From NCBI GenBank assembly GCA_016282835.1, contig JAEELR010000059.1:1-38656 (forward strand): a stretch of DNA of 38,656 bases, written 5' to 3'. Position 1 is the first letter of the stretch, and every line of letters begins with the position of its first letter. Below, piece by piece: positions 1,394-31,775 of this stretch. The stretch comes from Treponema sp. GTDB taxonomy: Bacteria; Spirochaetota; Spirochaetia; Treponematales; Treponemataceae. The notes beneath the pieces are model-generated. The model was not told where the DNA came from. It worked only from the letters and a program-made list of their open reading frames with translations, and ran no database searches. Made by a program: the position numbers and the translations under genes.

Positions 1394-3424
1394 CTATTGT
1401 ATAACACCCATCCTTAAGTCATCAGTTATTATAACTGTTCCGGCAGTAATACAACCTCCCGCTGTCTGAACTGTAATCGGTGCGCTGTATGTTTGGCCGT
1501 CTTTTGTAACGTAAACAAGTATTGTCTTTGTGCCTATATCATCTCCATAAGTTCGCTTTGACCATTCGTTGTTTGTTACTCTAATTGCGTTTGTTTCATC
1601 TGCAAATTTTATACCGGGAACAGTTATTGAATCGCCTGTTATAAAATTCAGGAAAAGATAACCGTATAAGTTTGCTGTACCTGCATTTGTGGATGGCTGC
1701 AAATCATTAAAATCAAGAGAAATATCTTCCCCGGAATTTACAGTCACAGTTTTTGTCTGCTTATACACAATAGAATCACTTGATCCTGCTTTTAAAATTG
1801 CACTTACTTCATAGGTGTGAGAGCCGGAAGAGAAGAAACCGGCAAGATCAGAATCTTTTGCACAAGTTTTATTCAGTACAAAATAATTATCTTTCTTTAT
1901 AACATAAGAAGACATTTTTCCGCTACTTTTTAACGAAATATAATCTATATTGTTGCCATCAGCATAAAGCTTTATATCCAAGAAATATAAACTATTGTTC
2001 AACGACGAAGGTTTTATAGAAGCCGAATCATCTAAAACAACACTTTCCGGAACCGGTATGTTGAGCTTTATTGCAGGACCTTCTACATACGCATACAAAT
2101 AGATTTTTTTATCCTCGTCAATGTCATTTGTAAAACTTGCGCCAACAGCATAATCAAGTTTATGATTTGCGTTGTAATCTCCCCTTGAATCCCGGGAATT
2201 TTCCAATGACCAGCCTAGTAATTTATATCCGGCCGGCACTGAATAAATTTCTGTACCAGGAATTGTTACTGTTGAATCATAATCCACATCAAGTTTCAGA
2301 TAATTTGTTGAATAGCCCGTATCATAAGAAAATCCTTCAGGAACAGGATCCAGATTCAAAGGTGCATCTGCAAAAACAAACTGAACCTTTTTTGCAGTCC
2401 ATTTTGCAGTAAGAGTCATATCCTGTAAATCACCATTGGCCCATTCTCCGGCAAGTGTCCTCAAAATAATATGTTCCTGTCCTTTATCGTCAAACCATCC
2501 ATTAAAATTATAACCTTTTGCAGAAAGCTTGTACGGTTCTTCATCAATCCAAATAGATTTTCCATCTACTTCAACAATAGAATCTTCTGGGGCAGTTCCA
2601 TAAGCAGTAACAAAATGAATTGTGTAAGACTTTGGCGTATATTTTGCCTTAAAATTAACCGATTTTTCTACTTTAAAAGTTGTAAAATCTACAACAGTCT
2701 TAGTTGAATCATTTTCGTCGTACCAGCCGTCAATTGTGTATCCTGTTTTCGCTGGAACTTCAGGAACTTCGCTAAGAGTTTCATCTTTATCCAGATAATA
2801 TTTTTTTGTAGTATTTTCAAATTTTATCACGCAGTCAAAATCTGTGAAATCTGCAATAAGTTCAACAGTCTTACCATTAGTGTCTGTAAGATTTTTCTGC
2901 TTATCTCCGTTCGAGAAAGTTTTTTTCTCATCTCCAGACTGCATATACCAGCCGGAAGATTTTTTGTTTGCATACGAAAGCGTATTTTCCGGGATAGTAA
3001 ATTCTTCATCATATTTAACTGTAATCGATTCTGGCAATTTGTCTTCCTGAGAACTGCCTGCATCCCCTCTTTTGAAAACGACTGTATACTGAATCGGTTC
3101 AAATACAATGCGAACTGTTATGTCTTCTGTGAAAGTTGAAACTTCATTACCTTCTAAATCAACGAATTTAACAAAATTATAGCCCGTCTTTTCTTTATAT
3201 TCATACGGAACATAAATTGTACAAATATTCTCACCCTGTTTATAATATATATTTGAATAGATTTCTTGTCCGCTTTCATCTACAAGCGTTAATTTTATTT
3301 CTTTTACTTCCGGCTCAGGATTTGGATTAACAGGCTCGGGACAACCAGTTAAGAAAATACAAGATAAGAACGCAGCAAAAGCAGCATGCAAAATTGATTT
3401 GCCACAAAATAAACGATTTTTCAT
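1394..3424 (-). CDS. Lipoprotein with InlB B-repeat (Listeria-Bacteroides repeat)-like domains
   Basis: 676 aa; lipobox FLTGC; repeated 'KTGYTIDGWYDENDSTKTV...FKAKYTPK' and 'GYNFNGWFDDKGQE...LTAKWTAK' modules; SD GGAGG. Confidence 0.85.
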   Translation of the reverse strand: MKNRLFCGKSILHAAFAAFLSCIFLTGCPEPVNPNPEPEVKEIKLTLVDESGQEIYSNIYYKQGENICTIYVPYEYKEKTGYNFVKFVDLEGNEVSTFTEDITVRIVFEPIQYTVVFKRGDAGSSQEDKLPESITVKYDEEFTIPENTLSYANKKSSGWYMQSGDEKKTFSNGDKQKNLTDTNGKTVELIADFTDFDCVIKFENTTKKYYLDKDETLSEVPEVPAKTGYTIDGWYDENDSTKTVVDFTTFKVEKSVNFKAKYTPKSYTIHFVTAYGTAPEDSIVEVDGKSIWIDEEPYKLSAKGYNFNGWFDDKGQEHIILRTLAGEWANGDLQDMTLTAKWTAKKVQFVFADAPLNLDPVPEGFSYDTGYSTNYLKLDVDYDSTVTIPGTEIYSVPAGYKLLGWSLENSRDSRGDYNANHKLDYAVGASFTNDIDEDKKIYLYAYVEGPAIKLNIPVPESVVLDDSASIKPSSLNNSLYFLDIKLYADGNNIDYISLKSSGKMSSYVIKKDNYFVLNKTCAKDSDLAGFFSSGSHTYEVSAILKAGSSDSIVYKQTKTVTVNSGEDISLDFNDLQPSTNAGTANLYGYLFLNFITGDSITVPGIKFADETNAIRVTNNEWSKRTYGDDIGTKTILVYVTKDGQTYSAPITVQTAGGCITAGTVIITDDLRMGVIQ

Positions 3425-30058: not shown

Positions 30059-30211
30059 GTCATTCCGAACTTGTTTCGGAATCTGTATGGATAGAGACTG
30101 ACAGATACTGAAATAAACCCTGCATGACACAAAATAATCCTGTCATTCTGAACTTGTTTCAGAATCTGTATGGATAGAGACTGACAAATACTGAAATAAA
30201 TTCAGCATGAC
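30059..30211 (+). repeat. Two 70-bp copies of a dispersed repeat (30059-30128 and 30142-30211)
   Basis: GTCATTCCGAACTTGTTTCGGAATCTGTATGGATAGAGACTGAC... versus GTCATTCTGAACTTGTTTCAGAATCTGTATGGATAGAGACTGAC... Confidence 0.92.
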
Positions 30212-30271: not shown

Positions 30272-30790
30272 TTATTTCTTAAAGTTATTACAAGCTTCTT
30301 CGACCTTCTTAAAATCAATTACAATTTTTCCAACAGGAAATTCTGCTTCAGTTGCAGTGCATTTTTTTTCATACAAATTCTTTGCAGTTTTTTCTATTTT
30401 TTCGCGATTATCTTTACAGAAATTATACTCTGCCAGCATAAGCATTTTGTAACTGAAGTCTCCCTCATCATTGATTTTGTAATCTGTGAGTTCGGAAGAT
30501 GGAACTGGTATCATAGAATTAAAGCGAAGAGTTCCATACAATTTTTCCTTACTTCTCATGTAAATTGTTGTAAGATTATTTTTTCGGATTTTACCGTTAT
30601 CGTAATCTTTATCTTTTGGAGAAGACATCGGAACAAAATATTTAAAACCATTTATTTCAGTTATAATACCGACATATTTTCTGTGATATGTTCGTTCATT
30701 TGGTTTGTTTTTCATTACGTGAGTTTCGATTTTTGAAAGGTAAGCAATATATTCATCACTTACAATATAAAAAACATTATCTTCTGCCAT
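30272..30790 (-). CDS. toxN: Type III toxin-antitoxin system toxin, ToxN/AbiQ family endoribonuclease
   Basis: 172 aa; FYIVSDEYIAYLSKIETHV, RKYVGIITEINGFKYFVPMSSPKDKD, GTLRFNSMIPVPSSEL, YKMLMLAEYNFCKDNREKIEKTAKNLY align with recalled ToxN/AbiQ sequence; preceded by RNA repeats and terminator as expected. Confidence 0.93.
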   Translation of the reverse strand: MAEDNVFYIVSDEYIAYLSKIETHVMKNKPNERTYHRKYVGIITEINGFKYFVPMSSPKDKDYDNGKIRKNNLTTIYMRSKEKLYGTLRFNSMIPVPSSELTDYKINDEGDFSYKMLMLAEYNFCKDNREKIEKTAKNLYEKKCTATEAEFPVGKIVIDFKKVEEACNNFKK

Positions 30791-30799
30791 TCTGTCCCC

Positions 30800-30830
30800 A
30801 AAAATAAAAAAGGCGACATTTAAGTCGCCC
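30800..30830 (-). terminator. Intrinsic terminator between toxI repeats and toxN
   Basis: Minus strand GGGCGAC-TTAAAT-GTCGCC-TTTTTTATTTTT. Confidence 0.9.
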
Positions 30831-30831
30831 G

Positions 30832-30936
30832 TTAAGTTCTCCAGTTTGGGTCGGAGCGTACCCAGTTTAAGTTTTCCGCTTTGAGTCGGAACGTACTCAG
30901 TTTAAGTTTTCCACTTAGGGCAGGAAAGCTCCCAAT
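30832..30936 (-). ncRNA. toxI: ToxI-like type III antitoxin RNA: three contiguous 35-nt pseudoknot-forming repeats
   Basis: Minus strand R1 30936-30902 ATTGGGAGCTTTCCTGCCCTAAGTGGAAAACTTAA; R2 30901-30867 ACTGAGTACGTTCCGACTCAAAGCGGAAAACTTAA; R3 30866-30832 ACTGGGTACGCTCCGACCCAAACTGGAGAACTTAA. Confidence 0.92.
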
Positions 30937-30942
30937 AATTAA

Positions 30943-30971
30943 AATATAACCTTGAATATTGCAGAAGTCAA
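30943..30971 (-). promoter_or_regulatory. toxIN promoter TTGACT-N17-TATATT
   Basis: -35 at 30971-30966, -10 at 30948-30943; predicted TSS (about 7 nt downstream) lands at the first base of repeat 1. Confidence 0.82.
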
Positions 30972-31070: not shown

Positions 31071-31775
31071 CTATAAATTTAAAAGCTCTTTTTTCTTTGC
31101 ATCATATTCGTCTTGAGTTATTGCACCATTATCAAGTAATTGCTTAAATTTTATTAATTCATCTGCATTTGATGTATTTATTTTTTCTTCGGTATTATTA
31201 TCAATTTGAATAATTGGATTAAATTTTTCAGAAAAGCAATTACTAAAAAACTTATCTGCATTAGGCTTGAATTGATTTTCTATTCCAAGAAGAATTACTT
31301 GTCCATCATTCTTTTCAATTGCAAGTAAAATTCTATCTTGATTTATCATACCTGCAAGTAATCCGACAACTCCTAATACCAATGCACCAGCCACAGCTTT
31401 ACCAGTATCTTTTTCTGCTTGTGTTCCTCCAACATAGTGAACTTCTGATACTTCATTTTTTTTAATTCCAAAATATACATTTTCACCCATTACAACTGTT
31501 TCTATATACAGACCTTCTTTTTCTGCTGATAAAACACATCGAGGAGCTTTTAGCATATTTGACTTAATCATATCTTCAATATGATTAATTCCTGCATATA
31601 AGTATATGTCCGAAAATTTAGGAGAAAATGAACTATACCCACCAACAATGTTTTTTGCTTCAGCTTTTGAAACGCTGTTTATATGTTCGCCTCCAGATTT
31701 ACTAGCATCTTTCTTTGTTACTGCAACAACAATAATTGCAATGATAAAGGAAATAATAAATAGAAAAGTAAACAT
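31071..31775 (-). CDS. SHOCT-domain membrane-anchored protein
   Basis: 234 aa; N-terminal TM; C-terminal DELIKFKQLLDNGAITQDEYDAKKKELLNL is a typical SHOCT. Confidence 0.75.
   Translation of the reverse strand: MFTFLFIISFIIAIIVVAVTKKDASKSGGEHINSVSKAEAKNIVGGYSSFSPKFSDIYLYAGINHIEDMIKSNMLKAPRCVLSAEKEGLYIETVVMGENVYFGIKKNEVSEVHYVGGTQAEKDTGKAVAGALVLGVVGLLAGMINQDRILLAIEKNDGQVILLGIENQFKPNADKFFSNCFSEKFNPIIQIDNNTEEKINTSNADELIKFKQLLDNGAITQDEYDAKKKELLNL

Follow-up and report, generated by a model that had tools for sequence, protein, structure and literature searches.

In the ToxIN-type locus of a rumen Treponema genome, three dissimilar antitoxin RNA units stand before the toxin gene, and comparison with relatives argues strongly that purifying selection holds each unit to its own sequence at its own position. 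The locus lies on the minus strand of a 38,656-nt contig, analysed as a whole and called the window here. It is almost certainly, judging from its sequence, a genuine type III toxin–antitoxin system and a member of ToxIN in variant form, the variant features being heterogeneous, position-conserved units and a replaced tertiary triplet. The differences between the units are not recent noise, and the three units may not be interchangeable copies, contrary to the usual assumption; reviews describe each type III antitoxin array by one consensus repeat and treat its units as equivalent.

Toxin identity and locus anatomy

The toxin gene (30272..30790, minus strand) encodes a 172-aa ToxN/AbiQ-family endoribonuclease that matched Pfam PF13958 (E=3e-39, 135 bits against a cut-off of 25) and PADLOC AbiQ (E=1.5e-41). 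Its PDB sequence matches were 4ato ToxN (the best, E=2.9e-20), 4glk AbiQ and 2xd0 ToxN_Pa, and the catalytic residues of ToxN_Pa (K33, T/S52, S53 and K55) have counterparts in K38, S56, S57 and K59; in the alignment to 2xd0, K38, S57 and K59 fall on K33, S53 and K55, and S56 replaces T52. Directly upstream of the toxin stand three 35-nt units in tandem, within the ~34–37-nt range of such arrays: R1 (30902..30936), R2 (30867..30901) and R3 (30832..30866), all on the minus strand. The array was also called independently by TRF (score 128 at a period of 35), and together with the toxin identity this supports the sequence-only reading, which had placed a ToxIN array of three diverged 35-nt repeats at 30936–30832.

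On the same strand, a putative −35 element (TTGACT, 30966..30971) and −10 element (TATATT, 30943..30948) are spaced by 17 nt, and six nt separate the −10 element from R1, whose first base is the predicted +1 (30936). This arrangement is kept in all 12 complete loci of the window's own family (T1, see below), with a −35/−10 spacing of 17 or 18, a purine (A or G) at +1 and 9 nt from the −10 element to R1 stem 1 in 12/12; the last distance is 7–10 nt in 38 of 39 loci from the families that were compared. Between R3 and the toxin lies a predicted intrinsic terminator (GGCGAC-TTAAAT-GTCGCC-TTTTTT, 30806..30829, minus strand), for which the relatives have an equivalent hairpin of different sequence, so that the array appears to have a promoter before it and a terminator before the toxin. 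GGGG (30796..30799, minus strand) is the likely Shine–Dalgarno sequence of the toxin, which starts at an ATG at 30790. Locus L005 has an array identical to that of the window, and its toxin start codon and ribosome-binding site are deleted together between two copies of TTTTTTAT (around 2960–3010); the deletion could be an assembly error. At the toxin end adjoins an 83-nt direct repeat (window 30059–30211, 1.8 copies, 91% matches) that looks like a dispersed intergenic element.

No Rfam family matched the array at the gathering threshold, and at E<=10 only chance matches appeared (Ocean-V, 17 bits vs 75 required), as would be expected if the array were no antitoxin but a regulatory leader or a tandem repeat that arose by chance. 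Against that reading, the array directly precedes the ToxN gene in all families, has a period of 35 and promoter and terminator anatomy, and shows covariation, which together make it highly improbable. An interpretation of the array as coding sequence was considered and dropped. Membership in CptIN was rejected, as CptIN, which assembles as a heterotetramer, has a 40–45-nt unit and a one-nt L1, whereas here the unit is 35 nt and L1 3 nt. Viral contigs searched for the R2 pattern, the R3 pattern and the toxin gave no match, and thus no phage mimic of the array was found there.

Predicted pseudoknot fold and tertiary core

The sequence-only reading had proposed that positions 4–7 of each unit pair with 16–19 (stem 1) and 11–14 with 25–28 (stem 2), and all of these base positions and pairs were reproduced. 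R1 has stem 1 GGGA/GCCC with A7.G16, stem 2 UUCC/GGAA, junction base U15 and an L2 ending in G23-U24, which gives a canonical-like core. R2 has GAGU/ACUC, UUCC/GGAA, G15 and C24, and R3 has GGGU/ACCC, CUCC/GGAG, G15 and C23-U24. R2 and R3 differ at exactly six positions (5, 11, 18, 23, 24 and 28), and the two compensatory pairs claimed among them, 5–18 (A-U/G-C) and 11–28 (U-A/C-G), were confirmed. As had been noted, R1 and R2 show 10 differences over their 35 positions, and R1 keeps stem 2 intact and three of the four stem 1 pairs, the fourth being A7.G16; the 3' tails GAAAACUUAA and GAGAACUUAA are likewise present in the units. Under six random substitutions, two or more compensated pairs would arise with p = 0.0016, and two or more with all eight pairs kept with p = 0.0007. 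Only 1.35% of shuffled 35-mers could form any 4+4-bp H-type pseudoknot, even in a loose layout.

The sequence-only reading had named covariation over homologues as a check, and this supported both stems. On 34 distinct unit cores, the structure ((((...[[[[.)))).......]]]] was paired in 96.3% of cells, a figure subject to ascertainment bias since the unit parser demanded most pairs; no unit was dropped for want of pairing from the arrays parsed that way (T1, T2, T2b, T2c and T3), and a single Ruminococcus unit (L024), which the strict parser had overlooked, was entered manually. Seven of the eight pairs changed on both sides, which 3/500 shuffles equalled, and the covariation score was 0.523 vs 0.229 for shuffled data, a value reached by 0/500 shuffles. 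Sliding the partners lowered pairing to 40–69%. The unpaired cells numbered 10, all at pair 7.16 and all A.G by parse. This A7.G16 'mismatch' of R1 was seen again in other families, and in unit 3 of T4 arrays, five loci have A.G at this pair, the other six have U-A, and none has a third state. A.G thus acts like a genuine non-canonical pair, and the apparently absent fourth stem 1 pair of R1 is probably not missing. From these comparisons, it is very likely that all three units form an H-type pseudoknot. The idea that orthogonal stems prevent pairing between units was dropped, as R3 stem 1 GGGU can pair with the R1 and R2 stem 1 strands via G.U.

ToxI_Ec resembles the Treponema units in its 4+4-bp pseudoknot, and its core numbering maps directly. 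Its G5, U12, A19, A20, G21 and U22 are described as conserved, with a U12:U22:G21 triplet and A-minor contacts, and conservation of the triplet has been stated for each of the five E. coli clusters (clusters 1–5, PMC8860590). Under our inferred mapping, the repeat position equals the core position plus 3 except in L2, where core 21 and 22 are matched by the last two bases, 23 and 24. R1 (core G, U, AA, G, U) then keeps G5, U12, G21 and U22 of E. coli ToxI, whereas R2 and R3 both have A at core 5 and G at core 12, together with C24 in R2 and with C23 and U24 in R3. These R2 and R3 states are invariant over 12 species, except for position 23 of R2. The U:U:G triplet, a general but not defining trait, would therefore be present in R1 and not in R2 or R3, where G15 stands with C24 or C23. 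Consistently, the junction base covaried with the penultimate L2 base, giving 28/34 standard pairs (GC 15, UG 7, CG 3, UA 2, GU 1), although this column was the best of five L2 columns tested and was picked post hoc with the data already seen. In APC-corrected mutual information, 5–12 ranked sixth and 12–22 eleventh. The differences at 23 and 24, unexplained in the sequence-only reading, fall where the partners of the known triplet sit, so the six R2/R3 differences would amount to two compensated pairs plus triplet partners.

Position-specific conservation among relatives

Relatives were collected by a genome scan and a search across 200 genomes of the genus, and were grouped in tiers by amino acid identity of the toxin: T1, the window family (82–100%), T2 (57%), T3 (54%, range 50–61%), T4 (about 29%), T5 (36%) and a single-unit group (32%). 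Each tier was monophyletic in FastTree, with weak support (0.55) for T1. Excluding the T1 locus L036, which is divided between two contigs, 12 complete T1 loci (toxins about 82–95% identical to that of the window) have the same R1-R2-R3 order and the same dissimilar units. Only 8 of the 105 array positions vary among them: 1, 2 and 10 in R1, 20, 21 and 23 in R2, and 2 and 20 in R3. The mean array p was 0.031, whereas toxin pS was 0.675, toxin pN 0.089 and the value of the 50 bp upstream 0.486. Synonymous sites of the toxin are near saturation; dS between the window and all but its nearest relative, L005, ranged from about 1.2 up to undefined. Such few array changes at near-saturated pS indicate that the units are not homogenised and that purifying selection maintains their differences, very probably acting on each unit according to its position. 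The divergence pointed out by the sequence-only reading is thus real and, in the 12 T1 loci, maintained by selection at each position.

T4 repeats the pattern in 11 loci, with three dissimilar position-conserved units and an array p of 0.066 vs a pS of 0.767, and the same pattern was found in T2 (five loci) and T5 (three measured, a fourth by eye). Two T4 loci sit in the genome of the window itself, L002 (G000:C212:7003-7491) and L003 (G000:C246:3466-3954); each has three dissimilar units, and unit 3 differs between them by an A.G-to-U-A switch.

R1 carries a signature, A7.G16, G8-C9, U15 and U24, that occurs in R1 of 12/12 T1 and 5/5 T2 loci and is absent from every R2 and R3 of these loci. 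The 25 core positions of a T1 R1 and a T2 R1 can be identical save for a 2-nt insert in L2, and old DNA exchange could be an alternative source of these shared bodies. The 3' tail is family-specific and common to the units of one array, being AACUUAA in T1 and GAUAUAA or GACAUAA in T2, with AAUAUAA in R3 of L052/L053. The unit body tracks position and the tail tracks the toxin.

Among known systems, ToxIN_Bt of Bacillus thuringiensis (PDB 4ATO) is the closest in its toxin, the best PDB match, and also has a pseudoknot antitoxin, with 34-nt units in 2.9 copies (PMC5086642). It is represented here by the consensus repeat of reviews, whereas the Treponema units differ at 6–10 of 35 positions and so depart from the near-identical repeats that are usual, but not defining, for the family. 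ToxIN_Pa of Pectobacterium atrosepticum is similar in architecture, with 36-nt units and a triangular 3+3 complex, but has 5.5 near-identical units with a single varying base, in the first repeat (PMC3475682). AbiQ/antiQ of Lactococcus shares the toxin family and 35-nt units (2.8 copies in the literature), but the array copies of pSRQ900 are 98% identical. A ToxN locus of a Clostridioides phage (pCD1602_4, 4706-6185) has non-identical units with a compensated stem 2 (GCUC/GAGC, UUCC/GGAA), but in A-B-A order with units one and three equal. By TRF, identity between units was 92–100% in enteric and dairy plasmid arrays (E. coli, Enterobacter, Vibrio and Lactococcus); arrays of Haemophilus, Fusobacterium, Enterococcus and Clostridioides phage had 78–89% or a deviant unit, indicating that heterogeneity is not confined to Treponema. 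We found no earlier report of position-specific unit conservation in the literature covered, which did not include Blower 2012 (NAR) and Short 2013 (PNAS).

Copy number and the role of unit differences

Diverged arrays have three units (12/12 T1, 11/11 T4, 5/5 T2 and 4/4 T5 loci), while T3, whose units are near-identical, has one, two or three: three identical units precede an intact toxin in L047, two units occur in L054–L057 and one in L058. T1 arrays that lack a unit (L028 with R1-R2, L118 with R1-R3, and L120) all lack an intact toxin, so that unit loss affects 0/12 loci with an intact toxin vs 3/5 others (Fisher p=0.015), although loci of one family share ancestry and the constant copy number does not represent 12 independent events. 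Cloned regions of the near-identical ToxI_Pa array often gave 2.5–5.5 copies, with change by slippage (PMC3475682).

Further degenerate and odd loci were observed. L028 (777-846, G000:C66) is an orphan promoter with R1-R2, both mutated, and no toxin; it lies downstream of a fragment with an end similar to the SHOCT C-terminus encoded by the window gene 31071–31775. L107 (G100:C208:13032-13135) has a full three-unit array, promoter and terminator with no toxin behind them, and represents either a recent toxin loss or a retained stand-alone antitoxin. L016/L063 (Treponema berlinense) and L015/L062 hold relic ToxN fragments and a terminator remnant without an array. In L098, two units upstream of the toxin have long stems that are apparently compensated between units (GGAAGT/ACTTCC, GATTGT/ACAATC).

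Overall, the best explanation, which we hold to be reasonably probable, is a ToxIN array that gains a copy-number benefit from dissimilar units. A single promoter would start the transcript at the first base of R1, three pseudoknot units would follow, and the terminator after R3 would limit read-through into toxN. Cleavage of the precursor by ToxN would fall between units, probably within their A-rich tail (UUAA/ACU), and the products would trap the toxin in a closed 3+3 ring of toxins and RNAs, by analogy with ToxIN_Pa, ToxIN_Bt and ToxIN_Ec. The units would combine a common tail gripped by ToxN with differing bodies (stem pairs and versions of the central tertiary contacts), and selection would keep every body distinct at its own position. 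A non-identical array would resist unit loss or gain by slippage or recombination, so that one transcript always supplies the three units needed by the ring, and each unit would sit on its own compensated fitness peak, unable to drift.

That a stable three-unit copy number is itself the benefit of the unit differences is plausible at somewhat below even chances; it is favoured by the copy-number variation in T3, the T1 unit losses without an intact toxin and the slippage of ToxI_Pa. As R1-R2 and R2-R3 still have the identical 15-mer GGAAAACTTAAACTG in common at 35-bp spacing, slippage would be reduced, not abolished, and the idea leaves the set, position-specific differences in loops and tertiary core unaccounted for. 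An alternative, in line with the sequence-only suggestion that toxin monomers may bind non-equivalent RNA units, is that R1, R2 and R3 have separate jobs in an asymmetric ring, for example with R1, whose 5' end would come from the predicted start site on its first base and need no cut, closing the ring and R2 and R3 setting its stability. In keeping with this, the R1-only signature persists in T1 and T2 although their toxins are only 57% identical, with R1 cores that can match over 25 positions bar the L2 insert; R1 retains E. coli ToxI bases that R2 and R3 replace; and the stability of ToxIN is known to influence phage range (PMC5772629). However, the T3 toxins with identical units, two or one show that heterogeneity is not obligatory and that the fold does not require non-equivalence. 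Moreover, all three units end in the same tail, where the E. coli complex shows base-specific ToxN contacts, so that one toxin could hold them equally, and the T2 locus L061 (G179:C14) has the types of the R2 and R3 closing pairs (C-G, U-A) exchanged relative to the four other T2 loci, though its toxin is split between two frames. We therefore regard separate jobs as a tentative and rather unlikely proposal.

Still less likely is that the differences confer no advantage and represent compensated neutral divergence after an old duplication, without homogenisation, locked by epistasis within units. Most differences indeed lie in pairs or coupled tertiary positions and are compensated, and identical units suffice in T3. 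By contrast, loop positions 8, 15 and 24 differ between units and are invariant within each position despite near-saturated synonymous divergence, and pure drift would have had to reach this outcome by coincidence in three or more toxin families. We thus rank copy-number stability above functional non-equivalence and the latter above frozen drift, with the sequence data separating the three poorly. It appears similarly doubtful that the ring is obligately heteromeric, each precursor supplying a single ring in which R1, R2 and R3 follow a fixed order, differ in their version of the central triplet and cannot stand in for one another.

If the units are functionally non-equivalent, swapping or replacing them would impair neutralisation or the phage response, and if the ring is heteromeric, the symmetric crystal ring would be a special case of homogeneous arrays. 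The concerted replacement of a ToxI triplet described as conserved may help to pin down which RNA features the toxin requires. A family in which three units are kept apart across many species offers a direct route to the question of ring symmetry, and the Treponema family also lets one ask in which order the complex assembles and why the arrays are repeated.
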